Source: Flagellimonas taeanensis (lineage in GTDB: Bacteria > Bacteroidota > Bacteroidia > Flavobacteriales > Flavobacteriaceae). Taken from it: a stretch of 64,000 nucleotides of DNA. The notes under the pieces were generated by a model. It was not told the origin of the DNA, did no database searches, and saw only the letters and a program-made list of their open reading frames with translations. Shown here piece after piece: positions 12,237 to 47,118 of this stretch (the first letter of the stretch is position 1; the number at the start of each line of letters is the position of its first letter). Location of the stretch: contig NZ_QXFO01000022.1 of the NCBI RefSeq assembly GCF_003584105.1, forward strand, positions 131,501 through 195,500. Direction: 5' to 3'. The translations under genes were made by a program, and so were the position numbers.

Positions 12237-12260
12237 TTTGAAAGTGTAAAAAATATACTT
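12237..12260 (+). promoter_or_regulatory. Upstream copy of the arabinose-type element
   Basis: Contains GTGTAAAAAATATACTT. Over 24 bases it matches the copy at 12377-12400 at 18 positions, and it lies exactly 140 bp upstream of it. Paired sites at this distance could allow DNA looping by a repressor. It is the weakest of the set. Confidence 0.45.
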
Positions 12261-12320: not shown

Positions 12321-12344
12321 ATATAGTATCAAAACAGGATAATA
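12321..12344 (+). promoter_or_regulatory. Hydroxyproline-regulon motif, copy a (susC1)
   Basis: ATATAGTAT, eight bases, then GATAATA. It contains the imperfect inverted repeat TAGTATC/GATAATA. It has the same 24-bp layout as the five other copies in this window, and a TAnnTTTA box begins 28 bp beyond its end. Confidence 0.7.
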
Positions 12345-12372: not shown

Positions 12373-12380
12373 TACATTTA
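12373..12380 (+). promoter_or_regulatory. Probable susC1 promoter -7 box
   Basis: TACATTTA, close to the Bacteroidota TAnnTTTG consensus. It is placed 28 bp after motif copy a and overlaps the element at 12377-12400. The predicted leader is about 95 nt. Its position suggests activation through the motif and repression through the element. Confidence 0.5.
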
Positions 12381-12400
12381 CAAGTGTAAAAATAACGCTT
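12377..12400 (+). promoter_or_regulatory. Arabinose-type element shared with the ara operon promoter
   Basis: Core GTGTAAAAATAACGCTT, preceded by TTTACAA so that TTTACA-AG-TGTAAA is a palindrome. It matches the element at 45430-45453 at 20 of 24 positions; all four differences are transitions. It overlaps the probable promoter box, which suits a repressor site. Binding by the Nudix AraR-type protein at 44466-45203 is inferred. Confidence 0.6.
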
Positions 12401-12480: not shown

Positions 12481-15477
12481 ATGAAATTGGCTAGCTTTTT
12501 ATTCAAAGAATGTCAGGGAACAAATCGTTTCAAAAAACAGGTTTTGTTTGCCATGTTCTGCCTTTTTGTGGTGCAGGTTGGACTTTCCCAACAGAAGGTT
12601 TCAGGTACTGTGACCGATGAGCAGGGAATTCCCATTGCAGGGGCGGCAGTTATGCAAAAGAACACGACCAACGGTACCGCCACGGATTTTGACGGGAATT
12701 TTGAGATCACCACCACTGCTCCCAATGCCGTACTGGTATTTTCCTATTTGGGTTTTGTGGCACAAGAGATCCCCGTTCAGGGATCCACTATAAATGTAAT
12801 GTTGAAAGAGGATCTACAGCAACTCTCTGAAGTGGTGGTGATTGGTTATGGTACGCAAAAACGTGCCGATGTCACCAGTTCCGTGGCCACAGTGAAGGCC
12901 GAGGATTTTGTGCAGGGCAACGTTAGGGATGCTGCACAGCTTATCCAGGGCAAGGTTGCGGGCCTATCTGTTTCCGCACCTTCAGGGGACCCCACCAAGG
13001 GGACCCAGATCAGTCTAAGGGGTATATCAACGTTATCGTCAGGAGGATCCAATCCCTTGGTGTTGGTGGATGGTGTTCCGGGCAGCTTGAACACGGTGGC
13101 CCCTGAAGATATTGAGTCCATCGATGTTTTGAAAGATGGCTCCGCCACTGCGATTTATGGTACGCGGGGTACCAATGGGGTGATTATCATTACCACCAAA
13201 CAGGGTACCAATGATATGAAATCCACCATTGAATACAACGGGTATGCCTCCTTGGCCACCATTGCTGATAGGATGGACTTTTTGGACGCATCCGAGCTCA
13301 GGGAAAAATTCAACGAGGGATACACTTTTACCGGTGCCAACCTACAGGATTTTGGAGCCGATACGGATTGGGTGGATGCAATTACCAGGGATGCCTTCAG
13401 CCAAGTGCACAACATTATCTTTAGGGGAGGAAATTCCACTTCAAACATGACGGCCTCTGTGAACTATAGGGATATTGAGGGAATCTTCCTGAAATCCAAT
13501 AATGAGAAGTATACGGGTAGAATCAATGTGAACCACGCCATGTTTGATAATAAACTGAAGACCAATGTTGGTGTCATTTTAAGTGAGCAAGTGTACAATG
13601 CCTTGGGTGATGGGGAGAGCTTCAACCCATACATTTATCGTCAGGCCATTATTCACAATCCAACGGAACCCATTCGAAACGAGGACGGAAGCTGGTTTGA
13701 AAGAGCCGTATATTTTTATGACAACCCAGTTTCCTATATCGAAGAAACATTTGGGGAAAACCGGTACCGAACCAGTAGGATAGATTTCTCCATGAGCTAT
13801 GATTTTGGGGACCACCTTACCGTAAAAGGTTTATACACCCGAAAAGGGGAAACCAATATCAGGGGATTCTATCAGACAAAGAACCACGTGTCCACCACTG
13901 AAAATGGACAGGGTGGATTTGCATCCAGAGGCACGGATAATTACGTAGGGAACTATGGTCAGTTCACCGTGGATTACGACAACAGTTTTGGTGCCCACAA
14001 AGTAACTGCACTGGTTGGGTACAACTACGAGGATAACATGAACGAGGGTTTCTGGGCCACCAACCGAAGGTTCCCCACCGATGGTTTTACCTATAACAAT
14101 TTAGGTAGTGGGCAAGGACTACAGTTGGGAGAGGCTGGTATGGGCAGCTATAAGAATGCGGACAAGTTGATTGCATTCTTCTCAAGGGTGACCTATAACT
14201 ATGATGACCGCTACCTTTTGATGGCCAGTATGCGTCGTGAAGGCTCCTCCCGTTTTGGTGAGGATTACAAATGGGGTAATTTCCCTGGAATTTCCTTGGG
14301 ATGGCGTATAGACCAAGAATCCTTCGCTGATAACTGGAACTGGTTGTCCAATTTGAAACTACGTACAGGTTTTGGGGTCACTGGTACCAATGCGGGTAAC
14401 AGATACCAATCCTTGAGTGGACTTACTTATGGGGATTATTTCTTGAACAATGGTGAATGGGTAAGGCAGTTGGTGCCTTCCCGTAATGCCAACCCCAATT
14501 TACGCTGGGAAAAGAAGGAGGAATTTAACGTGGGTCTGGATTATGGAATCTTGGACGGACGGATCAATGGTTCCGTGGACTATTATAACAGGACAACCAA
14601 AGATGCCCTCTTCAACTATAGCGTTCCCACACCACCTTATTTTTATGGCAATATAGCGGCCAATGTGGCGCAGATCAAGAACTCTGGTCTGGAATTCTTA
14701 GTGAACGTGACCCCGTTCCAAACGGAGAATTTCCAGTGGACCGCGAACTTGACCTATTCCACCAATACGAATGAGATTGTATCCCTGTCCAATGATGAAT
14801 TCCAATTAACCAACGATTTCTTCGATCAAGGATATACAGGAGAACCCATTCAGATTGCTACCCACAGGGTTCAGGAAGGGCAGCCCATCGGCAACTTCTT
14901 TGGATTGAAGAGCGTGGACATCACTGATGATGGAATCTGGATCATTGAAAGACCGGACGGAACACGGGTTCCTGCAACTGAGGCTACCAACGATGACCGT
15001 CAGGTATTGGGGAATGGTCTTCCGAAAGCATACTATAGCTGGAACAACACCATGAAATACAAGAACTGGGACCTTATGTTCAACCTTAGGGGTGCATTGG
15101 ATTACCAAGTCCTGAACTTTTCCCGCATGTTCTATGAGAATCCCACCATCGGTTACAATACCTTGGATTCCGCTTATGATCTGGTGTATGGTAAAGCAGT
15201 GCTGCAAGATGTGCAACGTTTTGTGAGCCACTATGTGGAAGATGGTGACTTCTTGAAGATTGACAATGTTACCTTGGGGTATACCCTTCCCAAAGATGCC
15301 ATTAAGTTTGCCCAGACATTCCGCATCTACGCCTCTGGTCTGAACTTGGCAACCTTTTCAAAATATAAGGGAATCGACCCAGAAGTAAATCGGGATGGAT
15401 TGGCACCAGGCAATGATGAAAGGGATAAATACCCTACCATCAGGACATTTACATTGGGCATCAACTTCACATTTTAA
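12481..15477 (+). CDS. SusC/RagA TonB-linked outer membrane transporter 1
   Basis: A 998-residue SusC-family transporter. It has a signal region ending VQVGLSQQ (residue ~37), a carboxypeptidase-regulatory-like domain (VSGTVTDEQGIPIAGAAV to DGNFEI), a TonB box region (LSEVVVIGYGTQKR near residue 115-128), and a plug with SSVATVKAEDF and PLVLVDGVPG. The beta-barrel ends in LGINFTF with the terminal aromatic residue. It forms the energised channel that imports oligomers held by its SusD partner, which lies 11 bp downstream. The promoter region carries both the hydroxyproline-regulon motif and the arabinose-type element, which none of the other transport genes here does. I therefore infer a glycopeptide or arabino-oligosaccharide substrate; the protein itself does not reveal it. 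Confidence 0.93.
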   Translation: MKLASFLFKECQGTNRFKKQVLFAMFCLFVVQVGLSQQKVSGTVTDEQGIPIAGAAVMQKNTTNGTATDFDGNFEITTTAPNAVLVFSYLGFVAQEIPVQGSTINVMLKEDLQQLSEVVVIGYGTQKRADVTSSVATVKAEDFVQGNVRDAAQLIQGKVAGLSVSAPSGDPTKGTQISLRGISTLSSGGSNPLVLVDGVPGSLNTVAPEDIESIDVLKDGSATAIYGTRGTNGVIIITTKQGTNDMKSTIEYNGYASLATIADRMDFLDASELREKFNEGYTFTGANLQDFGADTDWVDAITRDAFSQVHNIIFRGGNSTSNMTASVNYRDIEGIFLKSNNEKYTGRINVNHAMFDNKLKTNVGVILSEQVYNALGDGESFNPYIYRQAIIHNPTEPIRNEDGSWFERAVYFYDNPVSYIEETFGENRYRTSRIDFSMSYDFGDHLTVKGLYTRKGETNIRGFYQTKNHVSTTENGQGGFASRGTDNYVGNYGQFTVDYDNSFGAHKVTALVGYNYEDNMNEGFWATNRRFPTDGFTYNNLGSGQGLQLGEAGMGSYKNADKLIAFFSRVTYNYDDRYLLMASMRREGSSRFGEDYKWGNFPGISLGWRIDQESFADNWNWLSNLKLRTGFGVTGTNAGNRYQSLSGLTYGDYFLNNGEWVRQLVPSRNANPNLRWEKKEEFNVGLDYGILDGRINGSVDYYNRTTKDALFNYSVPTPPYFYGNIAANVAQIKNSGLEFLVNVTPFQTENFQWTANLTYSTNTNEIVSLSNDEFQLTNDFFDQGYTGEPIQIATHRVQEGQPIGNFFGLKSVDITDDGIWIIERPDGTRVPATEATNDDRQVLGNGLPKAYYSWNNTMKYKNWDLMFNLRGALDYQVLNFSRMFYENPTIGYNTLDSAYDLVYGKAVLQDVQRFVSHYVEDGDFLKIDNVTLGYTLPKDAIKFAQTFRIYASGLNLATFSKYKGIDPEVNRDGLAPGNDERDKYPTIRTFTLGINFTF

Positions 15478-15488
15478 AATATAAGACT

Positions 15489-17093
15489 ATGAAAAATATA
15501 CGAAACAAAGTGATTGCACTTAGATTGAGATTTTTGGTGCTGTCGGTCAGTGTGATTCTGCTACCGATAGGCTGTACTGACCTAGAGGAGGAAGTTTTCT
15601 CGGAAGTGACCGAATCCTCCTTCGTGCCAGCGGAGTCGGATATCATTTCAGTGATGGCCTCCGCCTACACGCCCATGCGCTATGTTATGGGATGGCAGGG
15701 ATACTTTGACCTTCAGGAAGAGCCTGCGGATATGTTTGTTACCCCAACAAGGCCCAATGGATGGGATGATGGGGGAACCTATAAAAGGATGCACTTCCAT
15801 GAATGGACGGAGACCCAGTGGCAGCCAAGGAATACATGGATCACCTGCTTTAATGGCATCAACAGCGCCAATAGGGTTATTCTTCAAATCGAGTCAGGGG
15901 AACTGCCCGTGAGTGAGGCCCAAGCTACATCCATCATTGCAGAAATGAGGGCACTCAGGGCCCTCTACTACTCTATGTTGGTAGATACACACGGAAATGT
16001 GCCCATCATTGCCAGTTATAGTGATGAACTTCCTGTTCAGAATACCCGTACCGAGGTCTATGATTTCATCGTCTCAGAATTGAACGAGGTGATTCCAGAC
16101 CTGACCGAAATAGTAGATCAATCCACTTATGGGCGTATGACCAAATGGGCGGCATACCATGTTTTGGCACGTGTGTACCTGAACGCCGAAGTTTATACAG
16201 GTACTGCTCAATGGGCCAATGTGATCACTGCTTGTGATGCAATTATCGGTAGTGGGGCTTTCACCCTCTCATCCAGTTATTCCGACATATTCGCCACAGA
16301 GAACCAAGGTAATCCCGAAATGGTCTTTGCCATTCCGTATGATCAGATTTTTGCGGGACAATGGAACGCCCACATGAAAATGTTGTTGCCCGACCACCGA
16401 TTGGTATTCGGGATGCAGGCACAGCCATGGGGAGGATCCAGCTGTAACCCACAGTTCATAGATAGTTACGAACCTACGGATAACCGTTTGGCCGATACTT
16501 GGTTGATGGGTGACCAGTTGAACTACTCGGATGGAAGCGTTGTCATGACCCTAAGAAAAGAAATGCCGAGTATATATAACTGTGATTTCACAGATGGGTT
16601 CAGGTGTGGAAAGTACGAAATAGAACCAGGGGCCACAGGAGGTCTTAGCGTCGATTTCCCGTTCTTGCGGTACACAGATGTATTGATGATGAAGGCAGAG
16701 GCATTGCTCCGAACCAATAGAAGTGATGAAGCTGCTGTCATAGTTACCCAAGTGCGTCAAAGATCTTTTGATGATTCGGCCGATGCAACGGTCACCGGAG
16801 CCGAATTGGAAGGGGATACCACGGTCCAGTACGGAACTTTGGCCGAGGATGGCACCATCGATCAACCAGGAGATCAATCCGTAGTGCCCTATGGACGTTT
16901 TTTGGACGAACTGGGCTGGGAATTTGCGGCGGAGGCCAGAAGAAGGACAGATTTGATACGCTTTGGAGTATATCAGACCAAAAACTGGTACAACCATACT
17001 CCTAAAGGAGACTATACCACTCTTTTCCCTATAGGTTTGGAAGAAAGGAACACCAACACCAACTTACAGCAGAACCCTGGATACCCCAACTGA
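15489..17093 (+). CDS. SusD/RagB outer membrane lipoprotein 1
   Basis: A 534-residue SusD/RagB lipoprotein. The signal peptide ends VILLPIGCTDLEEE, placing the lipidated Cys near residue 29. TPR-like helices follow (ISAEMRALRALYYSMLVDTHGNVPI-type text near residue 155, AAYHVLARVYLNAEVY near residue 220). The C-terminal part has the family pattern FLRYTDVLMMKAEALLRT near residue 395 and GWEFAAEARRRTDLIRFG near residue 477, ending in FPIGLEERNTNTNLQQNPGY. It caps the SusC1 barrel and binds the substrate at the cell surface. A strong terminator 50 bp downstream ends the pair as a two-gene operon. Confidence 0.93.
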   Translation: MKNIRNKVIALRLRFLVLSVSVILLPIGCTDLEEEVFSEVTESSFVPAESDIISVMASAYTPMRYVMGWQGYFDLQEEPADMFVTPTRPNGWDDGGTYKRMHFHEWTETQWQPRNTWITCFNGINSANRVILQIESGELPVSEAQATSIIAEMRALRALYYSMLVDTHGNVPIIASYSDELPVQNTRTEVYDFIVSELNEVIPDLTEIVDQSTYGRMTKWAAYHVLARVYLNAEVYTGTAQWANVITACDAIIGSGAFTLSSSYSDIFATENQGNPEMVFAIPYDQIFAGQWNAHMKMLLPDHRLVFGMQAQPWGGSSCNPQFIDSYEPTDNRLADTWLMGDQLNYSDGSVVMTLRKEMPSIYNCDFTDGFRCGKYEIEPGATGGLSVDFPFLRYTDVLMMKAEALLRTNRSDEAAVIVTQVRQRSFDDSADATVTGAELEGDTTVQYGTLAEDGTIDQPGDQSVVPYGRFLDELGWEFAAEARRRTDLIRFGVYQTKNWYNHTPKGDYTTLFPIGLEERNTNTNLQQNPGYPN

Positions 17094-17336: not shown

Positions 17337-17360
17337 TATTATCGTATATGCATATTATAT
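17337..17360 (-). promoter_or_regulatory. Hydroxyproline-regulon motif, copy e (susC2, inverted)
   Basis: Read on the minus strand: ATATAATAT, eight bases, GATAATA. It has one change from copy a in the conserved positions. The TAAGTTTC box downstream of it on the plus strand starts 34 bp from its edge, the same gap as the other inverted copy (29071-29094). Confidence 0.55.
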
Positions 17361-24394: not shown

Positions 24395-24418
24395 ATATAA
24401 TATCAATTACAGTTAATA
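24395..24418 (+). promoter_or_regulatory. Hydroxyproline-regulon motif, copy f (DUF885 gene 2)
   Basis: ATATAATAT, eight bases (CAATTACA), GTTAATA. It lies in the 310-bp gap between DUF885 genes 1 and 2. A TACCTTTA promoter box begins 29 bp after its end, the same spacing as at the hydroxyproline operon. Confidence 0.7.
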
Positions 24419-28135: not shown

Positions 28136-29011
28136 TCAAGAAGCCTTGGATTGGTTGTTCCATTTTTCAATGGAATATCTCCTGTACTGGGTTGGGGTAA
28201 CACCTTTCAGTTCCTTGAACTTCCTGTTGAAATTGGCAATGTTCAGAAAACCACATTGTTCGGAGACCATGGCAATGGAAAGATCGTTGTTCTTGAAGAG
28301 CAATCGGCATGCATGTTCTATCCGGATCTCGATCAAAAATTGAAAGAAGGTCTTGTTGGTCCTTTTCTTGAAATAACGGCAAAAAGCATTCTTGCTCATA
28401 TTGGCCCTATCGGCCACGGAATCCAACGAAAAGGATTCATGGAAATGGTTCAGGGCAAACTCGAACACATTGTTCATGCGGTTGCCCTCGTCGTTCGTGT
28501 AAATTTTTCGATACACGAAAGTGGACAAGGGTTGTCTTTCGGAGGAGATCATGATATCGAGTATGTGCAATAAGGTGGCTATCCGTTGTATGCGGCTTTG
28601 GTTTTTGAGATGACCGAAATGGAACGATAGCTTTTCCAGATTGGTCAATATTTTAATGCCATATCCTGATTCTTCGAAAAAGAGTTGGAGCCTGGTCATA
28701 TCCGACAGGTTGAAGAAATCCTTGCCAAAGGATTTTTTTGTGAAGAACAAGGTGTACATGACCGATTTGGAAGAGTTTTTCGGGTCGCTCCTGAACACAT
28801 GGGGCACATTTTCCCCAATGACCACCACATCACCTGCATTGAAATCGTTTACTGTGTCTCCCACAATGAGGGATCCCTCTCCCGAAGCAACATAGCTTAT
28901 CTGTATTTCTTCATGTTGGTGCAGTTTGTCATAAAAGACAATGCCGGTATCTTCTTGATACACCAGTGCTTCTTGCTCAGGTTTTGGGATTTTAAAAGGT
29001 AGAACTTTCAT
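28136..29011 (-). CDS. AraC-family transcriptional regulator
   Basis: A 291-residue regulator. Residues 1-90 are a cupin-type sensor (HQHEEIQISYVASGEGSLIVGDTVNDFNAGDVVVIGENVPHVF). Residues 190-285 are two helix-turn-helix motifs of the AraC type: SLDSVADRANMSKNAFCRYFKKRTNKTFFQFL and LSIAMVSEQCGFLNIANFNRKFKELKGVTPTQYRR. It faces the hydroxyproline operon across a 267-bp divergent region that holds two copies of the 24-bp motif. It is therefore the best candidate for the protein that reads that motif, with hydroxyproline or a derivative as the inducer (inference). One motif copy sits 60 bp before its own start, which would allow autoregulation. Confidence 0.88.
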   Translation of the reverse strand: MKVLPFKIPKPEQEALVYQEDTGIVFYDKLHQHEEIQISYVASGEGSLIVGDTVNDFNAGDVVVIGENVPHVFRSDPKNSSKSVMYTLFFTKKSFGKDFFNLSDMTRLQLFFEESGYGIKILTNLEKLSFHFGHLKNQSRIQRIATLLHILDIMISSERQPLSTFVYRKIYTNDEGNRMNNVFEFALNHFHESFSLDSVADRANMSKNAFCRYFKKRTNKTFFQFLIEIRIEHACRLLFKNNDLSIAMVSEQCGFLNIANFNRKFKELKGVTPTQYRRYSIEKWNNQSKAS

Positions 29012-29070: not shown

Positions 29071-29094
29071 ATATAGTATTGGTTTTAGATAATA
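29071..29094 (+). promoter_or_regulatory. Hydroxyproline-regulon motif, copy b (AraC side)
   Basis: ATATAGTAT, eight bases (TGGTTTTA), GATAATA. It is 60 bp upstream of the AraC start and is inverted relative to that gene. Confidence 0.65.
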
Positions 29095-29197: not shown

Positions 29198-29221
29198 ATA
29201 TAGTATCATAAAAGGCTAATA
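29198..29221 (+). promoter_or_regulatory. Hydroxyproline-regulon motif, copy c (catabolic operon)
   Basis: ATATAGTAT, eight bases (CATAAAAG), GCTAATA. It lies 57 bp upstream of the first catabolic gene. The promoter box begins 29 bp after it, which puts the motif near -55, a usual activator position. Confidence 0.75.
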
Positions 29222-29278: not shown

Positions 29279-30202
29279 ATGATACAATGGGAAGGCATTA
29301 TGCCTGCTGTAACGACAAAATTCACTAGCGAGGACAAATTGGACCTTGCCATGTTTGAGAAGAACATCAAGGCCCAAATGGATGCTGGAGTCCATGGGAT
29401 TATTTTAGGTGGCTCACTGGGGGAAGCCAGTACGCTTACCCAAGAGGAAAAAGAAACCTTGATCAAGGCTACACTTAAAATGGTAGGAGGCCAAATTCCT
29501 GTTGTGATGACCATAGCCGAACAAAGCACTAAAGAGGCTATTTTCATGGCCCAACAAGCCGAAAAGGCAGGTGCCCAAGGAATTATGGTGTTGCCTCCAA
29601 TGAGGTATAAGGCAACCGATCATGAAACCGTTGTGTTTTTTAAGTCCATAGCCAACAGCACCTCACTTCCCATGATGATCTATAACAATCCCATAGATTA
29701 TAAAATTGAGGTAACTTTGGATATGATGGAAGAATTGTTGGAGTGCGATAATATCCAGGCCGTAAAGGAATCCACAAGGGACATTACCAATATCATTAGG
29801 TTGAAAAACCGTTTTGGCGACCGTTTGAAGGTCTTCACCGGGGTGGACACTCTAGGACTGGAGAGCCTGGTGAGTGGTGCCGATGGTTGGGTGGCCGGAT
29901 TGGTATGTGCCTATCCAGCAGAGACCGTTGCCATATACGAATTGGTCAAAGCGGGAAAAATCGATGAGGCCCTAGAGATCTACAGGTGGTTCATGCCTTT
30001 GTTGGAGTTGGATATAGTCCCTCAATTGGTGCAGAACATCAAGTTGGCGGAAGTGGCCACTGGGATCGGTACCGAAAACGTAAGGCCACCAAGATTGCCC
30101 TTGCAAGGAAAAGAAAGGGAGCGGGTCCTCAACATTATAGAGACTGCCATGAAGAGCAGACCGGTGCTCCCAGAATATAAGAATATAAAAAGCACAGTAT
30201 GA
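29279..30202 (+). CDS. DapA-family lyase, probable 1-pyrroline-4-hydroxy-2-carboxylate deaminase
   Basis: A 307-residue aldolase of the dihydrodipicolinate synthase/N-acetylneuraminate lyase family. The Schiff-base lysine is in IQAVKESTRD near residue 162, the conserved Tyr in MIYNNP near residue 136, and GGSLGEASTLT near residue 41-51 replaces the usual GTTGE loop. In this context it should convert the product of D-hydroxyproline oxidation to 2-oxoglutarate semialdehyde, the third step of trans-4-hydroxyproline breakdown. The function comes from the neighbours: semialdehyde dehydrogenase, hydroxyproline epimerase and an FAD dehydrogenase all follow. It overlaps the next gene by 4 bp (ATGA). 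It is first gene of the operon. Confidence 0.88.
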   Translation: MIQWEGIMPAVTTKFTSEDKLDLAMFEKNIKAQMDAGVHGIILGGSLGEASTLTQEEKETLIKATLKMVGGQIPVVMTIAEQSTKEAIFMAQQAEKAGAQGIMVLPPMRYKATDHETVVFFKSIANSTSLPMMIYNNPIDYKIEVTLDMMEELLECDNIQAVKESTRDITNIIRLKNRFGDRLKVFTGVDTLGLESLVSGADGWVAGLVCAYPAETVAIYELVKAGKIDEALEIYRWFMPLLELDIVPQLVQNIKLAEVATGIGTENVRPPRLPLQGKERERVLNIIETAMKSRPVLPEYKNIKSTV

Positions 30203-31725
30203 TTACAGGTAAAAACTGTATTGCAGGAGATTTTAGCGGAAAGGGGAACGTTGAGTTCAAAACAATGAACCCCAAATTGAACAGTGAAAACCCAACAACT
30301 TTTGTGGAAGCCACAAAAGAAGAGATTGAGGAGGCCGTTTCCGAAGCATGGAACGCCTTCAAAACGTATAGAAAACTACCAGGGGCAAAACGAGCAGCTT
30401 TTTTGAATGCCATTGCCGATGAAATTTTGGCCCTGGACCAAGAATTGGTGGATACCTACACCACAGAATCCGGGCTTCCCGAAGGAAGGGCCGTCGGGGA
30501 AAGGGGCAGGACCGTGTTCCAGTTGAGGACCTTTGCCGAACTGGTCGCCAATGATGATTGGAGGGAAAACACCTTCGATGCTGCCCAACCGGACAGAAAA
30601 CCCTTGCCAAAGGATGATTTGAGAAAGACAATGATTCCCTTAGGGCCTGTGACCGTATTTGGCGCCAGTAATTTTCCATTGGCCTATTCCACGGCAGGTG
30701 GCGACACTGCAAGTGCCTTGGCTGCAGGTTGCCCCGTAATCGTGAAATCGCATCCCATGCATGCAGGGACGTCTGAACTGGTTGCTTCGGCCATTGTAAA
30801 AGCTGCTGAAAAAACGGGCATGCCCAAAGGAGTGTTCTCCAGTATCAACGGGGGCATTCAGGCTGGGGTCGATTTGGTGAACCATCCCAAGGTAAAAGCG
30901 GTGGGATTCACGGGAAGTATCGGCGGGGGAAGAGCCCTGTTCGATTTGGCGGCAAAAAGAGAAGAGCCTATTCCCGTATTTGCGGAAATGGGAAGCATCA
31001 ACCCGGTTATCATCACTCCGAGTGCCATATCCAAAAGGGCAGGAGAGATTGCCAAGACATACGCTGGTTCCATCACTTTGGGAACGGGTCAGTTTTGTAC
31101 CAATCCTGGTCTATTGTTGACGGTAAAGGATGGTAATACAGAGAATTTTGTAAATGAACTGGCCAAAGAGACCATTGCCCTGGACCCACAGTGCATGCTG
31201 CACCCCAATATCAAAAGCGGGTATGACAAAAAAGGTGCCGATGTAACTTCCCAGGCCGGGGTAGAGGTCGTTGGAAAAGTGGAAGGAACACTGGAACCCA
31301 ATTATGCGGCCTCAGTGGTGGCAACAGTATCGGGGACCGAGTTTTTGGCCAATCCCAAATTGCACCAAGAAGTTTTTGGGCCTTTTTCCATGGTGGTCCA
31401 GTGTAAGGATGAAACTGAGCTCCTTCAGATCATAGAAGGATTGGAAGGGCAATTGACCGGTACCCTTATTGCGGAGGAGGATGACGCCTTGGACTTGGTA
31501 GAAATTGTGGATGCCCTTCAGAATAGGGTGGGCAGGGTCATCTATAATGGCGTTCCCACAGGAGTTGAGGTCTGTCCGGCCATGCAACATGGCGGCCCTT
31601 ATCCGGCCTCAACGGATTCGAGGTTCACGGCGGTGGGCATCCATTCCATAAAAAGATGGGTAAGGCCTGTGAGCTATCAGTCCTTTCCGCAGTCATTGTT
31701 GCCGGAATACCTCAAGGGATACTAA
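30199..31725 (+). CDS. 2,5-dioxovalerate (2-oxoglutarate semialdehyde) dehydrogenase
   Basis: A 508-residue NAD(P)-dependent aldehyde dehydrogenase. The catalytic Cys lies in TLGTGQFCTNPGLL near residue 300, the general-base Glu in VFAEMGSINPV near residue 263, and the nucleotide-binding residues in GSIGGGRALFDLA near residue 235. The QFCTNPGL form and the N-terminus GKNCIAGDFSGKGNVEFKTMNP are typical of the KGSADH branch that oxidises 2-oxoglutarate semialdehyde to 2-oxoglutarate, the last step of hydroxyproline (and some pentose/aldarate) catabolism. It is translationally coupled to the deaminase. In the arabinose half no oxidative arabinose pathway exists, so hydroxyproline is the likely source of its substrate. 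Confidence 0.9.
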   Translation: MITGKNCIAGDFSGKGNVEFKTMNPKLNSENPTTFVEATKEEIEEAVSEAWNAFKTYRKLPGAKRAAFLNAIADEILALDQELVDTYTTESGLPEGRAVGERGRTVFQLRTFAELVANDDWRENTFDAAQPDRKPLPKDDLRKTMIPLGPVTVFGASNFPLAYSTAGGDTASALAAGCPVIVKSHPMHAGTSELVASAIVKAAEKTGMPKGVFSSINGGIQAGVDLVNHPKVKAVGFTGSIGGGRALFDLAAKREEPIPVFAEMGSINPVIITPSAISKRAGEIAKTYAGSITLGTGQFCTNPGLLLTVKDGNTENFVNELAKETIALDPQCMLHPNIKSGYDKKGADVTSQAGVEVVGKVEGTLEPNYAASVVATVSGTEFLANPKLHQEVFGPFSMVVQCKDETELLQIIEGLEGQLTGTLIAEEDDALDLVEIVDALQNRVGRVIYNGVPTGVEVCPAMQHGGPYPASTDSRFTAVGIHSIKRWVRPVSYQSFPQSLLPEYLKGY

Positions 31726-31772
31726 TTGCAGATTGATCACTAATAAATAGATGGTTTTTTAAAGAGCTACTA

Positions 31773-32780
31773 GTGGCAAGAAAAACATTTTTTTGTGTTG
31801 ATGCACATACCTGTGGCAACCCGGTTAGGGTTGTGGCAGGGGGAGGTCCCAACCTTTTAGGGGCCAACATGAGTGAAAAAAGACAGCATTTCCTCAAGGA
31901 ATATGACTGGATAAGAAAAGGGTTGATGTTTGAGCCCAGGGGACATGACATGATGAGCGGGAGCATTCTGTTCCCGCCCCATGAACCCGAAAATGACTTC
32001 GCCATCCTTTTCATAGAGACCTCCGGGTGTTTGCCCATGTGCGGGCACGGGACCATAGGGACCATAACCGTGGCTATTGAAGAGGGGTTGATTGCTCCCA
32101 AAGTGCCTGGAAAGATACGGATGGAAGCACCGGCCGGGTTGGTGGAGATCGAATACCAACAGACCGGAAAAAAAGTGGATTGGGTGCGTTTGGTGAATGT
32201 AAAATCCTATTTGGCCGCCGAAAATCTGACCGTGGAGTGCCCGGAATTGGGAGAAATCATTTTTGATGTGGCCTATGGTGGAAATTACTATGCCATTGTG
32301 GATCCCCAACAAAACTTCAAGGGAGTGCACCATTTTTCCGCAGGCCAGATCATTCAGTATTCCCAAGTGGTGCGAAATAGGATCAATGAAAAATATCCGG
32401 ACAAGTTCATCCATCCAGAAAACAGTACCATTCGCGATGTAAGCCATATGCTTTGGACGGGAGACCCAATTGACCCGACCTCATCCGGAAGGAATGCCGT
32501 TTTTTACGGGGACAAGGCGATAGACCGCTCCCCTTGTGGTACAGGAACCTCGGCCCGAATGGCCCAGTTGTATGCGAAGGGAAAATTGAAAGTGGGGGAA
32601 CCTTTCATCCACGAAAGTTTTATAGGCAGCAAGTTTATCGGGAAGGTGGTAAAGGAAACCACATTGGCGGACAAAATGGCTATCGTACCCAGTATCCAGG
32701 GATGGGCCCAGGTCACAGGATACAACAACATCATCATAGATGATGACGACCCGTACGCACACGGGTTTCAAGTGTTATAA
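31773..32780 (+). CDS. 4-hydroxyproline epimerase (proline racemase family)
   Basis: A 335-residue member of the proline racemase family. Both catalytic cysteines are present: PMCGHGTIG near residue 90 and DRSPCGTGTSARM near residue 253. Enzymes with two cysteines are racemases/epimerases; the related 3-hydroxyproline dehydratases have Thr instead of the second Cys. The opening FFCVDAHTCGNPVRVVAGGGP and GHDMMSGSIL are typical of the hydroxyproline epimerase branch. It converts trans-4-hydroxy-L-proline to cis-4-hydroxy-D-proline, the first step of the pathway. The start is GTG at 31773; an in-frame CTA precedes it and no ATG is available. It lies 47 bp after the dehydrogenase gene. Confidence 0.92.
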   Translation: MARKTFFCVDAHTCGNPVRVVAGGGPNLLGANMSEKRQHFLKEYDWIRKGLMFEPRGHDMMSGSILFPPHEPENDFAILFIETSGCLPMCGHGTIGTITVAIEEGLIAPKVPGKIRMEAPAGLVEIEYQQTGKKVDWVRLVNVKSYLAAENLTVECPELGEIIFDVAYGGNYYAIVDPQQNFKGVHHFSAGQIIQYSQVVRNRINEKYPDKFIHPENSTIRDVSHMLWTGDPIDPTSSGRNAVFYGDKAIDRSPCGTGTSARMAQLYAKGKLKVGEPFIHESFIGSKFIGKVVKETTLADKMAIVPSIQGWAQVTGYNNIIIDDDDPYAHGFQVL

Positions 32781-32791
32781 ATCGTTCCAAA

Positions 32792-34036
32792 ATGAAGAAA
32801 GTGATTGTTGTGGGGGGAGGCATCTCCGGACTTTTTAGTGCCTATTATTTGGTAAAGGAAGGGTATGAGGTAACGGTATTGGACCAGACCGATATGACCA
32901 GTGGGGCCTCTTACATCAATGCAGGATACATCACCCCGAGCCATTTTATACCCTTGGCCGCCCCAGGAATCATCACACAAGGCCTCAAATGGATGCTGGA
33001 CAGTTCCAGTCCGTTCTACATCAAACCCAGATGGGACATGGAATTCTTCAAATGGGCCCTGCTCTTCAAGAAATCGGCCACTGTTTCAAAAGTGAAAAAA
33101 GCAATGCCTGTTCTCATGGAACTCAACCTGAAGAGCAGGGATTTGTATGAAGAAATGCTGTCCGCCCAGAATTTTGACTTCCATTATGAAAGAAAAGGGG
33201 TACTGATGGCCTATTGTTCGGACAAGGCCGAAGAGGAAGAACACGAAGTGGCCGAACAAGCCATAAAAAAAGGTCTGGATGTTTCGGTGCTTACCAAAGA
33301 AGCACTGCACGAAATCCAACCAGTTTTTTCGGACAAGGTAAAGGGAGCGGTACACTATAAATGTGATGCCCATATGACCCCACACCATTTCATGCAACAA
33401 CTAAAGGATTGGTTGCTATCGCAAGGAGTGCGGTTCAGAATGGGACAAAAAGTAGAAGATGTCATTGTTGAGGGCAAAAAAATAGTGGCCATCAAAACCC
33501 ACAATACGGTTTTTGAGGCCGATGGATTTGTTCTGGCCTGTGGAAGCTGGACCTCAAAACTGGCATCCACTATAGGGTTGAACATTCCCATTCAAGGTGG
33601 AAAGGGGTATAGCATGGATGTGAACCGCCCCACCGGAATTACATTGCCTACCATATTGGTCGACGCCCGGATGGCAATCACCCCAATGGATGGTTTTACG
33701 CGTTTTGCCGGGACCATGGAATTCTCAGGCAACAACGATACCATCCAAAGAGAACGGGTCGAGGCCCTTGCAAAGGCGGTAAAGGCACATTATCAGAATA
33801 TTGAAATACTGCAAGCAGAAAAGGATAGGGCGACTTCAGGATTGAGGCCAGTATCCCCGGATGGATTGCCATATATTGGAAAAACCTCCAAATACAGCAA
33901 TCTTGTCATCGCATCGGGACATGCCATGATGGGGTGGAGCCTTGGTCCTATAACAGGCAAGTTGGTAGCACAGGAGATGGCCAATGCACAACCCTTGATC
34001 GATCTTTCCCCACTTTCCCCCGACCGATTCAACTAA
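32792..34036 (+). CDS. FAD-dependent D-amino-acid (D-hydroxyproline) dehydrogenase
   Basis: A 414-residue flavoprotein of the DadA/D-amino-acid dehydrogenase family. The FAD-binding dinucleotide motif VIVVGGGISGLFSAYYL opens the protein and the ribose-binding Glu/Asp lies in VTVLDQTD. The second half has GFVLACGSWTSKLA and TSGLRPVSPDGLPYIGKT near residue 347-364, the usual C-terminal FAD contact, followed by GHAMMGWSLGPITGKL. It should oxidise cis-4-hydroxy-D-proline to 1-pyrroline-4-hydroxy-2-carboxylate, the second pathway step. As last gene of the four it completes the pathway. It is a single-subunit form, with no extra Fe-S subunits as in the three-subunit HcnABC-like enzymes. Confidence 0.9.
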   Translation: MKKVIVVGGGISGLFSAYYLVKEGYEVTVLDQTDMTSGASYINAGYITPSHFIPLAAPGIITQGLKWMLDSSSPFYIKPRWDMEFFKWALLFKKSATVSKVKKAMPVLMELNLKSRDLYEEMLSAQNFDFHYERKGVLMAYCSDKAEEEEHEVAEQAIKKGLDVSVLTKEALHEIQPVFSDKVKGAVHYKCDAHMTPHHFMQQLKDWLLSQGVRFRMGQKVEDVIVEGKKIVAIKTHNTVFEADGFVLACGSWTSKLASTIGLNIPIQGGKGYSMDVNRPTGITLPTILVDARMAITPMDGFTRFAGTMEFSGNNDTIQRERVEALAKAVKAHYQNIEILQAEKDRATSGLRPVSPDGLPYIGKTSKYSNLVIASGHAMMGWSLGPITGKLVAQEMANAQPLIDLSPLSPDRFN

Positions 34037-34144: not shown

Positions 34145-34168
34145 ATATAGTATCAGTATCAGGTAATA
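34145..34168 (+). promoter_or_regulatory. Hydroxyproline-regulon motif, copy d (DPP IV operon)
   Basis: ATATAGTAT, eight bases (CAGTATCA), GGTAATA. It sits between the D-hydroxyproline dehydrogenase gene and the DPP IV gene. A TAGTTTTA box begins 30 bp after it. Confidence 0.75.
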
Positions 34169-34198
34169 AGAACTGATGGACAATTGGAGATTATCTCT

Positions 34199-34206
34199 AG
34201 TTTTAA
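34199..34206 (+). promoter_or_regulatory. Probable -7 box of the DPP IV operon
   Basis: TAGTTTTA, one change from TAnnTTTG, 30 bp beyond motif copy d. It implies a transcript start near 34212, which excludes the upstream ATG at 34184 as the translation start. Confidence 0.5.
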
Positions 34207-34219: not shown

Positions 34220-36484
34220 ATGGAATCTTTTGTCAAAAAAATAAGTGTATTTTTTATACTTATAACTTCGGGAACAGCATTTGCCCAAGGTACTTTAGCG
34301 GAATATAAAAAGGCAATTGCCCTGGATTCGTTGTTTCGGGACAAGGTCATCAACTCACCTTCCAGTTTTCATTGGTTGGAAAATGGGTTGTTGTGGTATG
34401 TGAACAATACTTCCGAAGGAAAGGAATACTTGTGGGTAGATCCTTCAGGTGAGGCCCAACAAAAATGTTTTGACCATACGGTCTTGGCCAAATTGTTGTC
34501 CGAAACATTTGACAAAGAAATTGATGCGGCCCATATTGATATCAGCGAACTGGAGTTTGATAAAGACATGGGTGAAATCAAGTTCATTTTTGACAAAAAG
34601 AAGATTTCCTACCGCACAAGCACCAATACGTTGACCATCATCGATGCAGATCCAAAGGATAGGGACCGAAACAGGGGCTATTGGGGCAGCAGGTTTGATG
34701 AGACCAGCAATCCGCCCGTGATGTCGCCAGACTCCAGCATGATTGCATTTATCAAAAACAGCAACCTGTACATCAAGAACAACAAGACCGAAGAGGAAAC
34801 CCGATTGAGTTATGATGGGGCGCCCGGTTTTTTCTATTCGAGTTATATCAAATGGTCTCCCGATGGGAAAAGGATCATGGCCTACAAAGTGCGTCCGGGC
34901 GATGACCGAAAAATCTATTTTGTGGAATCCAGTCCGGCAGATCAGTTCCAGCCCAAACTGCAGTCCAGGGACTATTTGAAACCGGGGGATGAACTTCCCT
35001 TCAAAAGCCCGCAATTGTTCTTGGTGGACTCCAAAAAGCACATCCCGATCCCAACAGACGAATTCAACCATCAATTTGGCCTGAACCGAATCGATTGGAG
35101 GGAGGACAGCCGGGCCTTCTCCTTCGAGTTCAACCAGCGGGGCCATCAGGCCTACAAAGTGATCGAAGTCGACGCTTTGACGGGGAGCCTGAAAGTTTTG
35201 GTGAACGAGACCAGTGACACCTTCATTGACTATAGCAGTAAAAAGTACCGATACGATGTGGCAGATGGCAAAGAGATCATTTGGACCTCAGAACGGGACG
35301 GTTGGAACCATATTTACCTCTACGATGGAAAGACAGGGCAGGTAGAAAAGCAACTCACGAAAGGAGAATGGGTCGTACGACAAGTCATCCATGTCGATGA
35401 AGAGAACAGGCAAGTCTATTTTACCGCCAGCGGGGTGGACAAGGATCAAGATCCCTATTTCATCCACTATTTCAAGGTGGGTCTTGATGGAAAGAACCTC
35501 ACCCGCTTCACAGTGGAAAATGCTGACCATGAAGTAACGTTCTCAAAAGATTTTTCATATTATGTGGATCAATACTCAAGAGTCGATGCACCGCCAGTGA
35601 CCCTCTTGAAATCATCAAAAAATGGCAAGACCATCATGCAATTGCAAAAGGCGGACCATTCCGCTTTGCTGAAAGAAGGATGGATAGCTCCCGAAGTTTT
35701 CACGACACAAGGGAGGGACGGTGTCACCGATATTTGGGGCATCATCATTAGGCCGACTTCCTTTGATCCCAACAAGACCTATCCGGTCATAGAATACATA
35801 TACGCAGGGCCCCACAGTTCCTTCGTGCCAAAAGATTTCAGTGCCTACTATTGGTCTATGTCCTCCTTGGCCGAGTTGGGCTTTATTGTGGTGCAGATCG
35901 ATGGGATGGGTACTTCCAACCGATCCAAGGCCTTTCACGACATCTGCTGGCAGAATTTAAAGGATGGCGGTTTTCCCGATCGGAAGATTTGGATCAAGGA
36001 AGCGGCAAAAAAATACCCCTACATGGATGCGGAAAAAGTGGGGATTTTCGGAACTTCGGCAGGAGGACAGAATGCGGCCGCAGCCCTGGTCTTCAATTCG
36101 GATTTTTATGACGTGGCGGTCTCATCCTGTGGGTGCCATGACAACAGAATGGACAAGATTTGGTGGAACGAACAGTTTATGGGCTATCCCATTGGTCCCC
36201 ATTACGCAGCCAGTTCCAATGTGGAAAATGCAGCCCAAATGGGCGGTAACCTGATGCTCATATTGGGTGAGGTGGACGACAATGTGGATCCTGCTAGCAC
36301 CATGCAGTTTGCCAACGCACTGATCAAGGCCAACAAAGATTTTGAATTGGTCACCATACCCGGAATGGGACATTCCTCTGGGGGAGATTTTGGGGAGCGT
36401 AAACGCAAGGACTTTTTTGTAAAGCACTTGATGGAAGTGGACCCACCTTCATGGGAAGCCATCTATGGTCAGAAAACCAATTAA
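34220..36484 (+). CDS. DPP IV-family S9 serine peptidase, exported
   Basis: A serine peptidase of family S9, 754 residues from the ATG at 34220 (MESFVKKISVFFILITSGTAFAQ, a clear signal peptide). An ATG at 34211 is also in frame; the one at 34184 lies before the predicted transcript start. An N-terminal beta-propeller is followed by an alpha/beta hydrolase domain. The catalytic Ser is in GIFGTSAGGQNAAAA, Asp in LGEVDDNVDPAS and His in IPGMGHSSG. Family members remove Xaa-Pro dipeptides or related units. The propeller segment before KWSPDGKRI reads GAPGFFYSSYI and lacks the Glu-Glu pair that DPP IV uses to hold the substrate N-terminus, so its specificity may differ. It is first gene of a four-gene operon whose other members act on arabinosides. 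Confidence 0.88.
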   Translation: MESFVKKISVFFILITSGTAFAQGTLAEYKKAIALDSLFRDKVINSPSSFHWLENGLLWYVNNTSEGKEYLWVDPSGEAQQKCFDHTVLAKLLSETFDKEIDAAHIDISELEFDKDMGEIKFIFDKKKISYRTSTNTLTIIDADPKDRDRNRGYWGSRFDETSNPPVMSPDSSMIAFIKNSNLYIKNNKTEEETRLSYDGAPGFFYSSYIKWSPDGKRIMAYKVRPGDDRKIYFVESSPADQFQPKLQSRDYLKPGDELPFKSPQLFLVDSKKHIPIPTDEFNHQFGLNRIDWREDSRAFSFEFNQRGHQAYKVIEVDALTGSLKVLVNETSDTFIDYSSKKYRYDVADGKEIIWTSERDGWNHIYLYDGKTGQVEKQLTKGEWVVRQVIHVDEENRQVYFTASGVDKDQDPYFIHYFKVGLDGKNLTRFTVENADHEVTFSKDFSYYVDQYSRVDAPPVTLLKSSKNGKTIMQLQKADHSALLKEGWIAPEVFTTQGRDGVTDIWGIIIRPTSFDPNKTYPVIEYIYAGPHSSFVPKDFSAYYWSMSSLAELGFIVVQIDGMGTSNRSKAFHDICWQNLKDGGFPDRKIWIKEAAKKYPYMDAEKVGIFGTSAGGQNAAAALVFNSDFYDVAVSSCGCHDNRMDKIWWNEQFMGYPIGPHYAASSNVENAAQMGGNLMLILGEVDDNVDPASTMQFANALIKANKDFELVTIPGMGHSSGGDFGERKRKDFFVKHLMEVDPPSWEAIYGQKTN

Positions 36485-36511
36485 TTTTAAATAGAGGAAA
36501 AAGATTTGATT

Positions 36512-39500
36512 ATGAGACTAGCTAAGTTATTCATTTGTACATTTTTGGGTTTTGGCGCTTTGGGACTGAACGGTTTACAAGCACAAAATGGCAACCAAAT
36601 ATTGGATGGTATAGGCGAGACAGGGATGATTGCCCGGTATATTTTCAACGGGGATGCGAAGGATTGGTCCCGAAACAACCTACATGCTAGGATATATGGT
36701 CCCAGTGCCAAGTTTGAGGATGATGAAAAATTTGGTAAGGTACTTTCCCTCGCAGCAGATGGCAAGTCATACATTGCTATTTCCGGTGAAGCCGTGGAAG
36801 GGGAAGAATCATTGAGCATATCCACATGGGTCAATTTCAGGTCCATGCAAACTGGCCAACATCTTTTTGATTTTGGAAAAGATGACAGGACGCATTTTTT
36901 TGTGGCCCCTTCGGGAATCCAAGGCAAAGAGGGATATCAGGCACAGATAGTAAAAGATGGCAAGGAGCAGTTCACGGCCATTGCGGCTAGCTCCAAAATT
37001 GAATTGGGCGAATGGGTACATCTGGCCATAGTGCTGGATATTCCCTCCAAATCCATGAACATTTTTATCAATGGGGAACAGGTGGGGAAAGCCGAGAACA
37101 TGGATATGGAACTGGCAGAACTGTTCACCCATGAGAACCTGCTGTATATCGGGAGGTCGATAACATCCAACAACACCTATCTCGATGCGAAGATCCATGA
37201 TTTCCGATTGTATCGAATCCCCTTGAGCGAAAGGCAAATAGGAAGGATCCGATACATCGCCCTAAGAGGAGGGGAGGGAACAGCAAGAAGGGAAAGGCCA
37301 GAGGACAACTTACCACAATTTGAAGCGGGAACCCCCCAATTGTACAATACGTACCTCACCGGGGTATCCAATATTGAAGTGGAGACCGAAGTGGGCCATC
37401 TGCCCAGATTGCCACGTTACGTCCAAGGCACCTACCGTAATGGCGTCAAAGGTCCCGAAGTAAGGGTGTTGTGGCCATCCCCAACGGACAACACCCAGGT
37501 GTTGCAGACAGGGACCTACGAGATCATCGGTCAAGTGGCAGGCACGGATTTTCAGCCTAAGGCCAAGGTCACGGTAAGAACAGGCAAAGAAATGGGCACA
37601 CCCAGCCGCAAACTGGAGGTATTCGGATTGGATGAGGTGTCCTTGGATGCCGATGCCAATGGCCAACAGACAAAGTTTATCGAGAACAGGGACAAATTCA
37701 TCAAGACATTGGCGCAGACCAATCCAGATTCCTTTCTCTACATGTTCCGAAATGCCTTTGGGCAAGAACAACCGCAAGGCGCAAAGCCATTGGGCGTTTG
37801 GGACAGTCAAGAGACCAAATTGAGGGGGCATGCCACGGGCCACTACCTTACCGCCATTGCCCAAGCCTATGCCAGCACAGGTTATGACAAGGAATTGCAG
37901 GCCAATTTTGCCGATAAGATGGACTATATGGTGGAAGTACTCTACCAATTGTCCCAAATGTCCGGACAGCCCACCAAAGCAGGAGGGGAACATGTGTCCG
38001 AACCAACGGCCGTTCCCCCAGGACCAGGCAAGTCTGCCTATGATTCCGATATTAGTGAAAATGGCATTCGGACTGATTACTGGAATTGGGGAAAAGGGTT
38101 CATCAGTGCCTATCCGCCCGACCAGTTCATCATGTTGGAAAATGGGGCCACTTACGGGACCCAGCCTACCCAAGTTTGGGCCCCTTATTACACTTTGCAC
38201 AAGATTTTGGCCGGTTTGATGGATATTTATGAAGTCAGCGGAAATGCGAAGGCCCTTGAAATTGCCAAGGGAATGGGCGATTGGGTATATGCCCGATTGA
38301 GCCAAGTGCCCACAGATACCTTGATCAGCATGTGGAACACCTACATTGCAGGGGAATTTGGGGGCATGAACGAGGCCATGGCCCGTTTGGACAGGATCAC
38401 CGATGAACCACGCTACCTGAAGGTCGCCCAATTGTTTGACAACATCAAAATGTTCTTTGGTGATGCAGGACATTCCCACGGATTGGCCAAAAATGTGGAT
38501 TCGTTCCGAGGGCTGCATGCCAATCAGCACATCCCTCAGATCATGGGCGCGCTCGAGATCTATCGCGATTCGGAATCACCTGAATATTATCGGGTGGCCG
38601 ATAATTTCTGGTACAAGGCCAAGAACGATTACATGTACAGTATCGGAGGTGTCGCCGGGGCCAGGAATCCCACCAATGCGGAATGCTTTATTGCCCAGCC
38701 CGCCACATTGTACGAGAATGGGTTTTCAGCAGGAGGACAAAATGAGACCTGTGCCACCTACAATATGTTGAAACTTACCAAAAACCTGTTCCTGTTTGAC
38801 CAGAGGACCGAGTTGATGGATTATTATGAGCGTGGACTCTACAACCATATCCTTGCCTCTGTGGCTGAGGACAGTCCGGCCAACACCTATCACATATCGT
38901 TGAGGCCCGGTTCCGCAAAAAGATTTGGGAATGCTGATATGAGTGGCTTTACTTGTTGCAACGGCACCGCTTTGGAGAGCAGCACCAAGCTCCAGAACTC
39001 CATTTATTTCAAAAATCTGGATGCGAATGCCCTGTATGTGAACCTCTATGTGCCCTCCACATTGAACTGGGAAGAGAAAAATATTATCATTGAGCAGAAA
39101 ACAGCTTTCCCGAAAGCGGACGAAACCCAATTGATCATCAAGGGGAAGGGGAAATTTGACCTGAACCTTAGGGTACCCCAATGGGCGACCAAAGGTTTTT
39201 ATGTAAGGGTGAACGGCAAGGAAGAAAAAGTAATGGCCCAACCGGGTAGCTACCTCACCTTGAGCCGCAAATGGAAGGATGGTGATATTGTGGATATCCA
39301 AATGCCGTTCCAGTTCCATTTGGAGCCCGTGATGGACCAACAGAACATTGCCAGTCTGTTTTACGGTCCTATACTATTGGTGGCCCAAGAACCTGAATCC
39401 AGGAACGATTGGCGCAAAGTGACCTTGGATGCCAATGATATTGGTAAGACCATTGAAGGTGACCCCAAGGCTTTGGAGTTTACCATTGACGGAGTGGTCT

Positions 39501-39562
39501 TCAAACCGTTCTATGAAACCTATGGGCGCCACTCGGTGTATTTGGATGTAACCTTGAAATAA
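36512..39562 (+). CDS. DUF1680 (GH127/GH146-type) beta-L-arabinofuranosidase with LamG domain
   Basis: A 1016-residue exported enzyme starting at the ATG at 36512 (MRLAKLFICTFLGFGALGLN, signal ending LQAQ). Residues ~30-250 form a concanavalin-like LamG domain (MIARYIFNGDAKDWSRN, LSISTWVNF, WVHLAIVLDI, LYIGRSI). A bacterial Ig-like segment (~280-365) follows. Residues ~370-1000 are the DUF1680 catalytic region: WNTYIAGEFGGMNE, GGQNETCATYNMLKL near residue 744 and GFTCCNGTALESS near residue 814. The Glu-x-Cys and Cys-Cys groups correspond to the zinc ligands and cysteine nucleophile of characterised GH127/GH146 beta-L-arabinofuranosidases, which act on hydroxyproline-linked or pectic beta-L-arabinofuranosides. 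It follows the DPP IV gene by 27 bp and precedes the DUF5695-like gene by 12 bp. Confidence 0.88.
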   Translation: MRLAKLFICTFLGFGALGLNGLQAQNGNQILDGIGETGMIARYIFNGDAKDWSRNNLHARIYGPSAKFEDDEKFGKVLSLAADGKSYIAISGEAVEGEESLSISTWVNFRSMQTGQHLFDFGKDDRTHFFVAPSGIQGKEGYQAQIVKDGKEQFTAIAASSKIELGEWVHLAIVLDIPSKSMNIFINGEQVGKAENMDMELAELFTHENLLYIGRSITSNNTYLDAKIHDFRLYRIPLSERQIGRIRYIALRGGEGTARRERPEDNLPQFEAGTPQLYNTYLTGVSNIEVETEVGHLPRLPRYVQGTYRNGVKGPEVRVLWPSPTDNTQVLQTGTYEIIGQVAGTDFQPKAKVTVRTGKEMGTPSRKLEVFGLDEVSLDADANGQQTKFIENRDKFIKTLAQTNPDSFLYMFRNAFGQEQPQGAKPLGVWDSQETKLRGHATGHYLTAIAQAYASTGYDKELQANFADKMDYMVEVLYQLSQMSGQPTKAGGEHVSEPTAVPPGPGKSAYDSDISENGIRTDYWNWGKGFISAYPPDQFIMLENGATYGTQPTQVWAPYYTLHKILAGLMDIYEVSGNAKALEIAKGMGDWVYARLSQVPTDTLISMWNTYIAGEFGGMNEAMARLDRITDEPRYLKVAQLFDNIKMFFGDAGHSHGLAKNVDSFRGLHANQHIPQIMGALEIYRDSESPEYYRVADNFWYKAKNDYMYSIGGVAGARNPTNAECFIAQPATLYENGFSAGGQNETCATYNMLKLTKNLFLFDQRTELMDYYERGLYNHILASVAEDSPANTYHISLRPGSAKRFGNADMSGFTCCNGTALESSTKLQNSIYFKNLDANALYVNLYVPSTLNWEEKNIIIEQKTAFPKADETQLIIKGKGKFDLNLRVPQWATKGFYVRVNGKEEKVMAQPGSYLTLSRKWKDGDIVDIQMPFQFHLEPVMDQQNIASLFYGPILLVAQEPESRNDWRKVTLDANDIGKTIEGDPKALEFTIDGVVFKPFYETYGRHSVYLDVTLK

Positions 39563-39574
39563 AATTGGATCGTA

Positions 39575-42280: not shown

Positions 42281-42283
42281 GAT

Positions 42284-45203: not shown

Positions 45204-45368
45204 AAGGGCTAAAATCCTAAAACTAAATTTTTTAAACAAATATCTTTTGATGAAAAACCTTAAAAAAAATCCCCTAAATCCATAAATGGAAAAAGAAAAT
45301 ACATCATTTACACATAATTCCTTTATATGTATCTGAAAATGAGAAATTAATGTTTAATTTTATATATG

Positions 45369-47112: not shown

Positions 47113-47118
47113 GCACAG

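Follow-up and report, generated by a model that had tools for sequence, protein, structure and literature searches.

The genes for an outer-membrane uptake pair, susC1-susD1 (12481..17093, forward strand), and for a set of putative deglycosylation enzymes (34220..44431, forward strand) in Flagellimonas taeanensis probably stand under a two-signal gate, in which an arabinose repressor, AraR, would have to be released and an AraC-type activator switched on before a glycoprotein bearing hydroxyproline-arabinosides is imported and broken down. The second set, named from domain searches, comprises an S9 peptidase, a GH127-type protein, a DUF5695 protein and a GH43 protein. Both operons lie in a 64-kb stretch of DNA (the window), and each carries a predicted AraR operator together with a motif that recurs at genes for hydroxyproline catabolism.

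The preliminary description had pointed to a 24-bp element shared by the susC1 promoter and the arabinose operon, and a recount bears this out: positions 12377-12400 and 45430-45453 are identical at 20 of 24 bases, the four differences all being transitions, and a third copy at 12237-12260 is identical to 12377-12400 at 18 of 24. The element does overlap the susC1 promoter box, by the final four bases of what is probably a -7 box (12373-12380), and it does resemble the palindrome GTGTAAAATTGACAC near the Nudix regulator gene, which has a GTGT-N7-ACAC core at 45367-45385. Dinucleotide shuffling of the two upstream regions gave a likeness of 20/24 in 16 of 500 trials; the bare 24-mer similarity is weak evidence, and the restriction to transitions adds nothing to it. 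Each 24-mer holds a one-mismatch copy of the inverted repeat AAGTGT-N7-ACACTT (12242-12260, 12382-12400 and 45435-45453), and this repeat is not a product of chance. Shuffling the susC1 upstream region 2000 times gave at least one one-mismatch site in 2 shuffles and two sites in none, and shuffles of the ara upstream region yielded at least one in 3 of 2000. A fourth one-mismatch site, absent from the preliminary description, lies at 34243-34261. The genome (4.09 Mb) has 12 places within one mismatch of the repeat, four of them inside the 64-kb window. Laxer matching gave no excess, either in the window at up to three mismatches (23 matches versus 25.4 expected from shuffles) or in the genome at up to two (131, fewer than the 177 for a reversed control pattern).

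Comparison of araR loci firmly supports AAGTGT-N7-ACACTT as the predicted operator of AraR in the Flavobacteriaceae. A spacer test, allowing one mismatch, covered the 80 best of the 475 araR loci found: N7 gave 130 matches in 75 loci, and each of the remaining spacer lengths between 0 and 15 gave 1-8. A position weight matrix was built from 101 sites in 55 of 58 loci (L042-L099), with Flagellimonas and its nearest relatives excluded; the training set includes the araR loci L059 and L048, probably those of G030 and G075, whose susC1 regions were left out of it. Because the training sites were chosen at one mismatch or fewer, the matrix favours that form. A site scoring at least 10 was present within 500 bp upstream of araR in 75 of the 80 loci, and no site of that score was found in the same interval in the other five, L033 and L038 among them. 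Of 125 sites in these 80 loci, 11 have an exact TAnnTTTG starting 9 bases ahead of the operator, and any other offset accounts for 1 to 3; we take TAnnTTTG to be the -7 promoter consensus and used it to call the susC1 -7 box.

Within the window, the four best places by this matrix are 45435 (score 26.2), 12382 (23.0), 34243 (20.8) and 12242 (16.4), followed by 45367 (6.3) in fifth position. Ten random 64-kb sequences of 70% A+T gave best scores of 6.2 to 22.5, and three other one-mismatch places in the genome score 16.5-17.6, above the distal susC1 site (16.4); single scores below about 20 are therefore not decisive alone. All eight of the other one-mismatch places (L005-L010, L015 and L016) score 17.6 or less, two of them below 10, and some are intergenic and A+T-rich (L008, L015). 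A further arabinose regulon may lie outside the window.

AraR itself (44466..45203, reverse strand) has a degenerate Nudix domain and a winged helix, as indicated by domain search, PDB match and residue comparison. PF00293, PF21906 and PF19368 exceed the Pfam cut-offs, giving NUDIX, NrtR_WHD and AraR_C domains. Its best PDB match is BtAraR (5bs6, E 2.6e-68, versus 1.4e-25 for 3gz5), and it reaches 144 of 400 bits against the NCBIfam NtrR model, below the model cut-off; by these comparisons its closest solved relative is BtAraR rather than the NAD-linked NrtR. The L-arabinose-binding residues R34, R86 and H131 are identical in the window AraR and in 80/80 orthologues, in which Y5 and F129 are likewise invariant. 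Eight of the ten ligand-contact residues are identical in all 80; of the hydrophobic ones, F36 is kept in 78 of 80, and V92 is Thr in all. Six base contacts have been reported as absolutely conserved: K179, R180 and N181 are identical in 80/80, and the window AraR has Asn, Arg and Lys in place of K184, K204 and R205 and also differs from BtAraR at S163, R183, K200 and A208. An AraR of at least 70% identity is found in 28 of 60 genus genomes.

BtAraR (BT0354) of Bacteroides thetaiotaomicron, as presented in the available text of PMC4666351, is likewise a Nudix and winged-helix protein with a GTGT-N7-ACAC operator. The core of its crystal duplex, AAGTGT TACTTTT ACACCC (PMC4666351, Table 2), has the same half site and 7-base spacer as the window operator. 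The regulons are also alike, with paired operators at the arabinose operon and extra sites at SusCD loci (PMC4666351), and three B. thetaiotaomicron polysaccharide utilisation loci are described there as being under dual HTCS and AraR control (Chang et al. 2015; PMC4666351). Relative to what that text describes, the host here belongs to the Flavobacteriaceae rather than to Bacteroides or Prevotella, three of the six base-contact residues differ, an AraC-type, hydroxyproline-linked protein takes the place of the HTCS as second regulator, and one predicted operator lies inside signal-peptide coding sequence.

The arabinose operon (45580..57937, forward strand), encoding GH51, GH127, GH51, araB, araD, araA, galM and a sodium symporter, carries AraR sites only. 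Its predicted main operator, AAATGTAAAAACAACACTT (45435..45453, forward strand), immediately follows a probable -7 box (45427-45434). A second, weaker predicted operator, TGGTGTAAAATTGACACAT, occupies the fifth-ranked place (45367..45385, forward strand) with the core GTGT-N7-ACAC, and a second site 68-69 bp from the main operator also occurs in loci L022-L025.

At susC1, the predicted proximal AraR operator AAGTGTAAAAATAACGCTT (12382..12400, forward strand, one mismatch) lies one base 3' of the probable -7 box TACATTTA (12373..12380, forward strand), which resembles TAnnTTTG; it has the second-best matrix score in the window. The predicted distal operator AAGTGTAAAAAATATACTT (12242..12260, forward strand, one mismatch), the weakest of the four, lies 140 bp away in a stretch that tandemly repeats the proximal region. 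One half of each susC1 operator is degenerate (ACGCTT, ATACTT), so that affinity may be low. The AraC-type motif, ATATAGTAT-N8-GNTAATA (12321..12344, forward strand), lies 61 bp from the proximal operator, start to start, and 28 nt from the -7 box. In the orthologues, a -7 match of at least 5/6 is found at a gap of 28 nt in 15 of 17 and at 29 nt in 2 of 17; a rival box position 22 nt from the motif averages 4.0 versus 4.76 of 6.

These orthologues comprise susC1 matches of E 1e-280 or better in 15 of 60 genus genomes (its own included), 14 of them at 86-100% identity and one, in G134, at 51%, and three more at 73-83% among 120 genomes sampled in the family. The operator is present upstream in all 18, in 17 with one mismatch or fewer and in G075 (L101) with two, and no AraR operator was found upstream of 10 other, less related SusC genes (0/10). 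The AraC-type motif is present in 17 of 18, G134 being the exception, and its spacing to the operator is 61-62 bp in 17/17 that have both. The preliminary description had read susC1 as carrying both an arabinose-type operator and a hydroxyproline-linked motif, and the orthologues suggest that this predicted pairing is a conserved one. The distal second site occurs in 13 of 18 orthologues; the two operators are mostly 140-141 bp apart, a length that is no independent evidence because the intervening region is homologous. The tandem repeat in the susC1 upstream region extends over 12130-12425 with a shift of 136-140 bp, pairing 12237-12267 with 12377-12407 and 12266-12284 with 12402-12420, which looks like a duplication of promoter and operator.

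The AraC-type regulator (28136..29011, reverse strand), a protein with cupin and HTH domains and the presumed hydroxyproline regulator, is divergent from dapA, the first of a set of genes for hydroxyproline catabolism (29279..34036, forward strand) encoding a DapA-type lyase, an aldehyde dehydrogenase, a 4-hydroxyproline epimerase and an FAD amino-acid dehydrogenase. One AraC-type motif lies between the regulator gene and dapA (29071..29094, forward strand), and another, at the catabolic operon (29198..29221, forward strand), is followed after 29 nt by a -7 box (29251-29258) without an AraR site. Exact copies of ATATAGTAT-N8-GNTAATA in the window start at 12321, 29071, 29198 and 34145, and weaker copies with one mismatch are found before the second DUF885 gene (24395..24418, forward strand) and before susC2 (17337..17360, reverse strand). 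At up to three mismatches the window has 11 copies versus a mean of 1.2 in 100 shuffles, and all four exact matches in the genome fall inside it; because the pattern was derived from the window copies, these own-genome counts are partly circular. At two mismatches the genome shows no excess, with 9 forward and 5 reverse matches versus 10 and 7 for the control.

Among 60 genomes, 58 had a dapA match, and in the best 30 loci the AraC-type regulator gene adjoins dapA in 30/30 and the motif lies upstream of dapA in 30/30 with one mismatch or fewer. The gap between the motif and a -7-like box (at least 5/6) is 29 nt in 15 of these loci and 30 nt in the other 15, and it is 28-30 nt across the dapA, S9 and susC1 promoters. 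From position alone, the AraC-type protein is presumed to be tied to this motif, and from its gene neighbours we infer that its effector is hydroxyproline. Between susD2 and the regulator gene, three DUF885 genes stand in a row (22501-28092), and their products are possibly peptidases of the same system.

The operon that starts with the S9 peptidase gene repeats the arrangement found at susC1. Its AraC-type motif (34145..34168, forward strand), the probable -7 box TAGTTTTA (34198..34205, forward strand) at a 29-nt gap from the motif, and the predicted AraR operator (34243..34261, forward strand) are each present in 14/14 orthologues, and the spacing between motif and operator is 98-99 bp in all 14. 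This operator lies inside the signal-peptide codons of the S9 gene, whose ATG is at 34220. Its seven codons show zero synonymous change in 14 genomes, and apart from two overlapping windows this is the sole place of such invariance among 748 seven-codon windows; the one amino-acid change, in one genome, falls in the spacer. The orthologues and the synonymous-change test speak against a coding coincidence. In the genus, a close susC1 and the S9 gene (E 1e-150 or better) occur in one and the same set of 14 genomes, all of which have AraR.

An inverted repeat, GAGATTATCTC (34187-34197; L157-L170), just before the S9 -7 box is nearly invariant in the 14 orthologues. The DUF5695 protein (39575-42280) has a near full-length Pfam match and is a member of the module in G075, G030, G094 and G134 as well; the literature match to the name DUF5695 concerns, by its title, fungal regulators. 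The protein is a candidate enzyme for hydroxyproline-arabinosides.

Taken over the four classes of promoter, the two sites are distributed distinctly. Upstream of dapA the AraC-type motif is present in 30/30 loci and the AraR site in 0/30; upstream of araR the AraR site is present in 75/80 and the motif in 0/80; at susC1 the figures are 18/18 for AraR and 17/18 for the motif; and the S9 operon has both in 14/14. Within the window alone, the closeness of AraR sites to AraC-type motifs was not significant (P 0.17), and the argument therefore rests on relatives. Since the genus genomes are related, their counts are not independent, and three genomes from outside genera carry most weight.

In these three, G075, G030 and G094, araR is on a different contig from susC1, and the AraC-type regulator gene adjoins the susC1D1 genes and the GH127-DUF5695 set. 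The neighbourhood of araR was checked for ara genes in the window, G030, G094 and G134, and araR stands beside them in G030 and G094. Of the three unlinked 40-kb regions around susC1, two contain the S9 gene and one the hydroxyproline genes. Each region has only two AraR sites scoring at least 13, at susC1 and at the start of the S9/GH127 operon. Five of these six sites are accompanied by an AraC-type motif at the distance expected, 61-62 or 98 bp; three of these motifs match exactly and two have one mismatch. At the remaining site, S9 of G094, the AraC-type copy is in the same place but has three mismatches. In G134, of the same genus, both sites stand 98 bp apart before the GH127 operon, and the susC1 homologue has only the AraR site. 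The preliminary description had seen in the shared 24-mer the strongest sign that both halves of the locus act on one substrate. The bare likeness is weak, but the case for a shared substrate is strengthened by a second operon that pairs the two predicted sites and by an operator kept where araR is unlinked; the interpretation is supported better than by the evidence first given for it.

We propose that the 24-bp element consists of the tail of a -7 box and an operator of AraR. Without L-arabinose, AraR would cover the transcription start at the ara operon and at susC1D1, and at the S9-GH127-DUF5695-GH43 operon it would cover the first codons; L-arabinose would release it. The AraC-type regulator would most likely activate from beside the -33 region in response to hydroxyproline or one of its products. 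Uptake and deglycosylation genes would then require both an activator present and a repressor released, and the two catabolic operons would respond to one signal each. With an activator site beside -33 and a repressor site over the transcription start, the simplest logic is AND. Sites, spacing and conservation come from sequence comparison, and from it we infer binding, polarity and effectors. The GH127 enzymes and hydroxyproline catabolism point to hydroxyproline-O-arabinosides, and the substrate would be a glycoprotein of this kind, extensin- or AGP-like. With less assurance, but on balance, we also favour reading the arrangement as a coincidence detector for one linkage, in which the amino acid and its bound sugar are both sensed, and which would be old, persisting across several genera with one operator held in signal-peptide codons.

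Among the alternatives, the one that deserves most weight, although we consider it unlikely, accepts that the sites bind AraR and denies the AND gate: AraR would only damp susC1 and S9 in an OR-like or graded manner, or the AraC-type protein would be a repressor. The degenerate half sites at susC1 and the position of the S9 operator inside a coding region fit such damping. A motif 28-30 nt from the -7 box is, however, in the usual position of an activator, and an operator after the -7 box is in that of a repressor; the AraC-type motif keeps that distance in three promoter classes, and the susC1 operator lies downstream of its -7 box. It is quite improbable that a different Nudix regulator binds the susC1 sites, making susC1 answer to another sugar. 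The genome does contain further Nudix paralogues (C15:39806, 38% identical; C5:249598), but no site scoring at least 10 lies within 1.5 kb of the paralogues (L002-L004), versus 75/80 araR loci, an AraR of 81% identity or more occurs in each of the 15 genus genomes that have a susC1 match, and the three genomes from other genera have one of 67-71%.

The remaining two readings would leave the susC1 sites without a role. Linkage could have carried the susC1 operator along with the neighbouring araR/ara operon in Flagellimonas, where araR and the hydroxyproline epimerase gene share a contig and are no more than 15 kb apart in 24 of 28 genus genomes (AraR at least 70%); with three other genera keeping the site while araR is on a different contig, this is very improbable. 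The reading that the 24-mers are ordinary A+T-rich promoter sequence matched by chance draws on the 16 of 500 shuffles that reach 20/24 and on lax matching without excess, and is scarcely credible given the spacer test, the 18/18 orthologues versus 0/10 controls, the synonymous constraint at S9 and the retention in unlinked genera.

The presumed activator can be likened by family and role, from description only, to LhpR of Pseudomonas aeruginosa, an AraC-family protein that activates hydroxyproline catabolism on binding L-hydroxyproline according to the available text of PMC6608401. The window regulator has an AraC-type HTH with a cupin-like sensor and shares its motif with neighbouring hydroxyproline-catabolic genes in 30/30 dapA loci; compared with LhpR as described there, its motif also stands before SusCD and glycosidase genes. 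The HypBA1/HypBA2 system of Bifidobacterium longum handles hydroxyproline-linked beta-L-arabino-oligosaccharides, with GH127 enzymes aimed at hydroxyproline-bound arabinose. It has, to our knowledge, neither hydroxyproline catabolism nor such regulation, and the likeness to the window locus, again by description, lies in the GH127 enzymes common to both. In the Latescibacteria, degradation of hydroxyproline-rich glycoproteins has been predicted, with extensin arabinosides of green-algal walls as the proposed target of GH127 (PMC4454575); that case, in the available text, is one of gene content and names no regulator or joint locus (PMC4454575).

If the two-signal gate is correct, two co-regulators sense two sides of one glycoprotein linkage, and bacteria could tell hydroxyproline-rich glycoproteins (extensins, AGPs, green-algal walls) from arabinan or free hydroxyproline. 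Polysaccharide utilisation loci usually sense an oligosaccharide and, as far as we know, at most one second, general signal. Judged by titles and the starts of abstracts among the matches listed, we found no publication on this combination. The proposal would also give a predicted substrate to an uncharacterised SusCD pair, a DUF5695 protein and a GH127-type protein. Two further SusC relatives at 44-47%, L104 (G117) and L105 (G100), have a weak AraC-type motif with two mismatches and are without an AraR site; an AraC-type gene lies within about 10 kb of each, and they are perhaps under hydroxyproline control without arabinose control.
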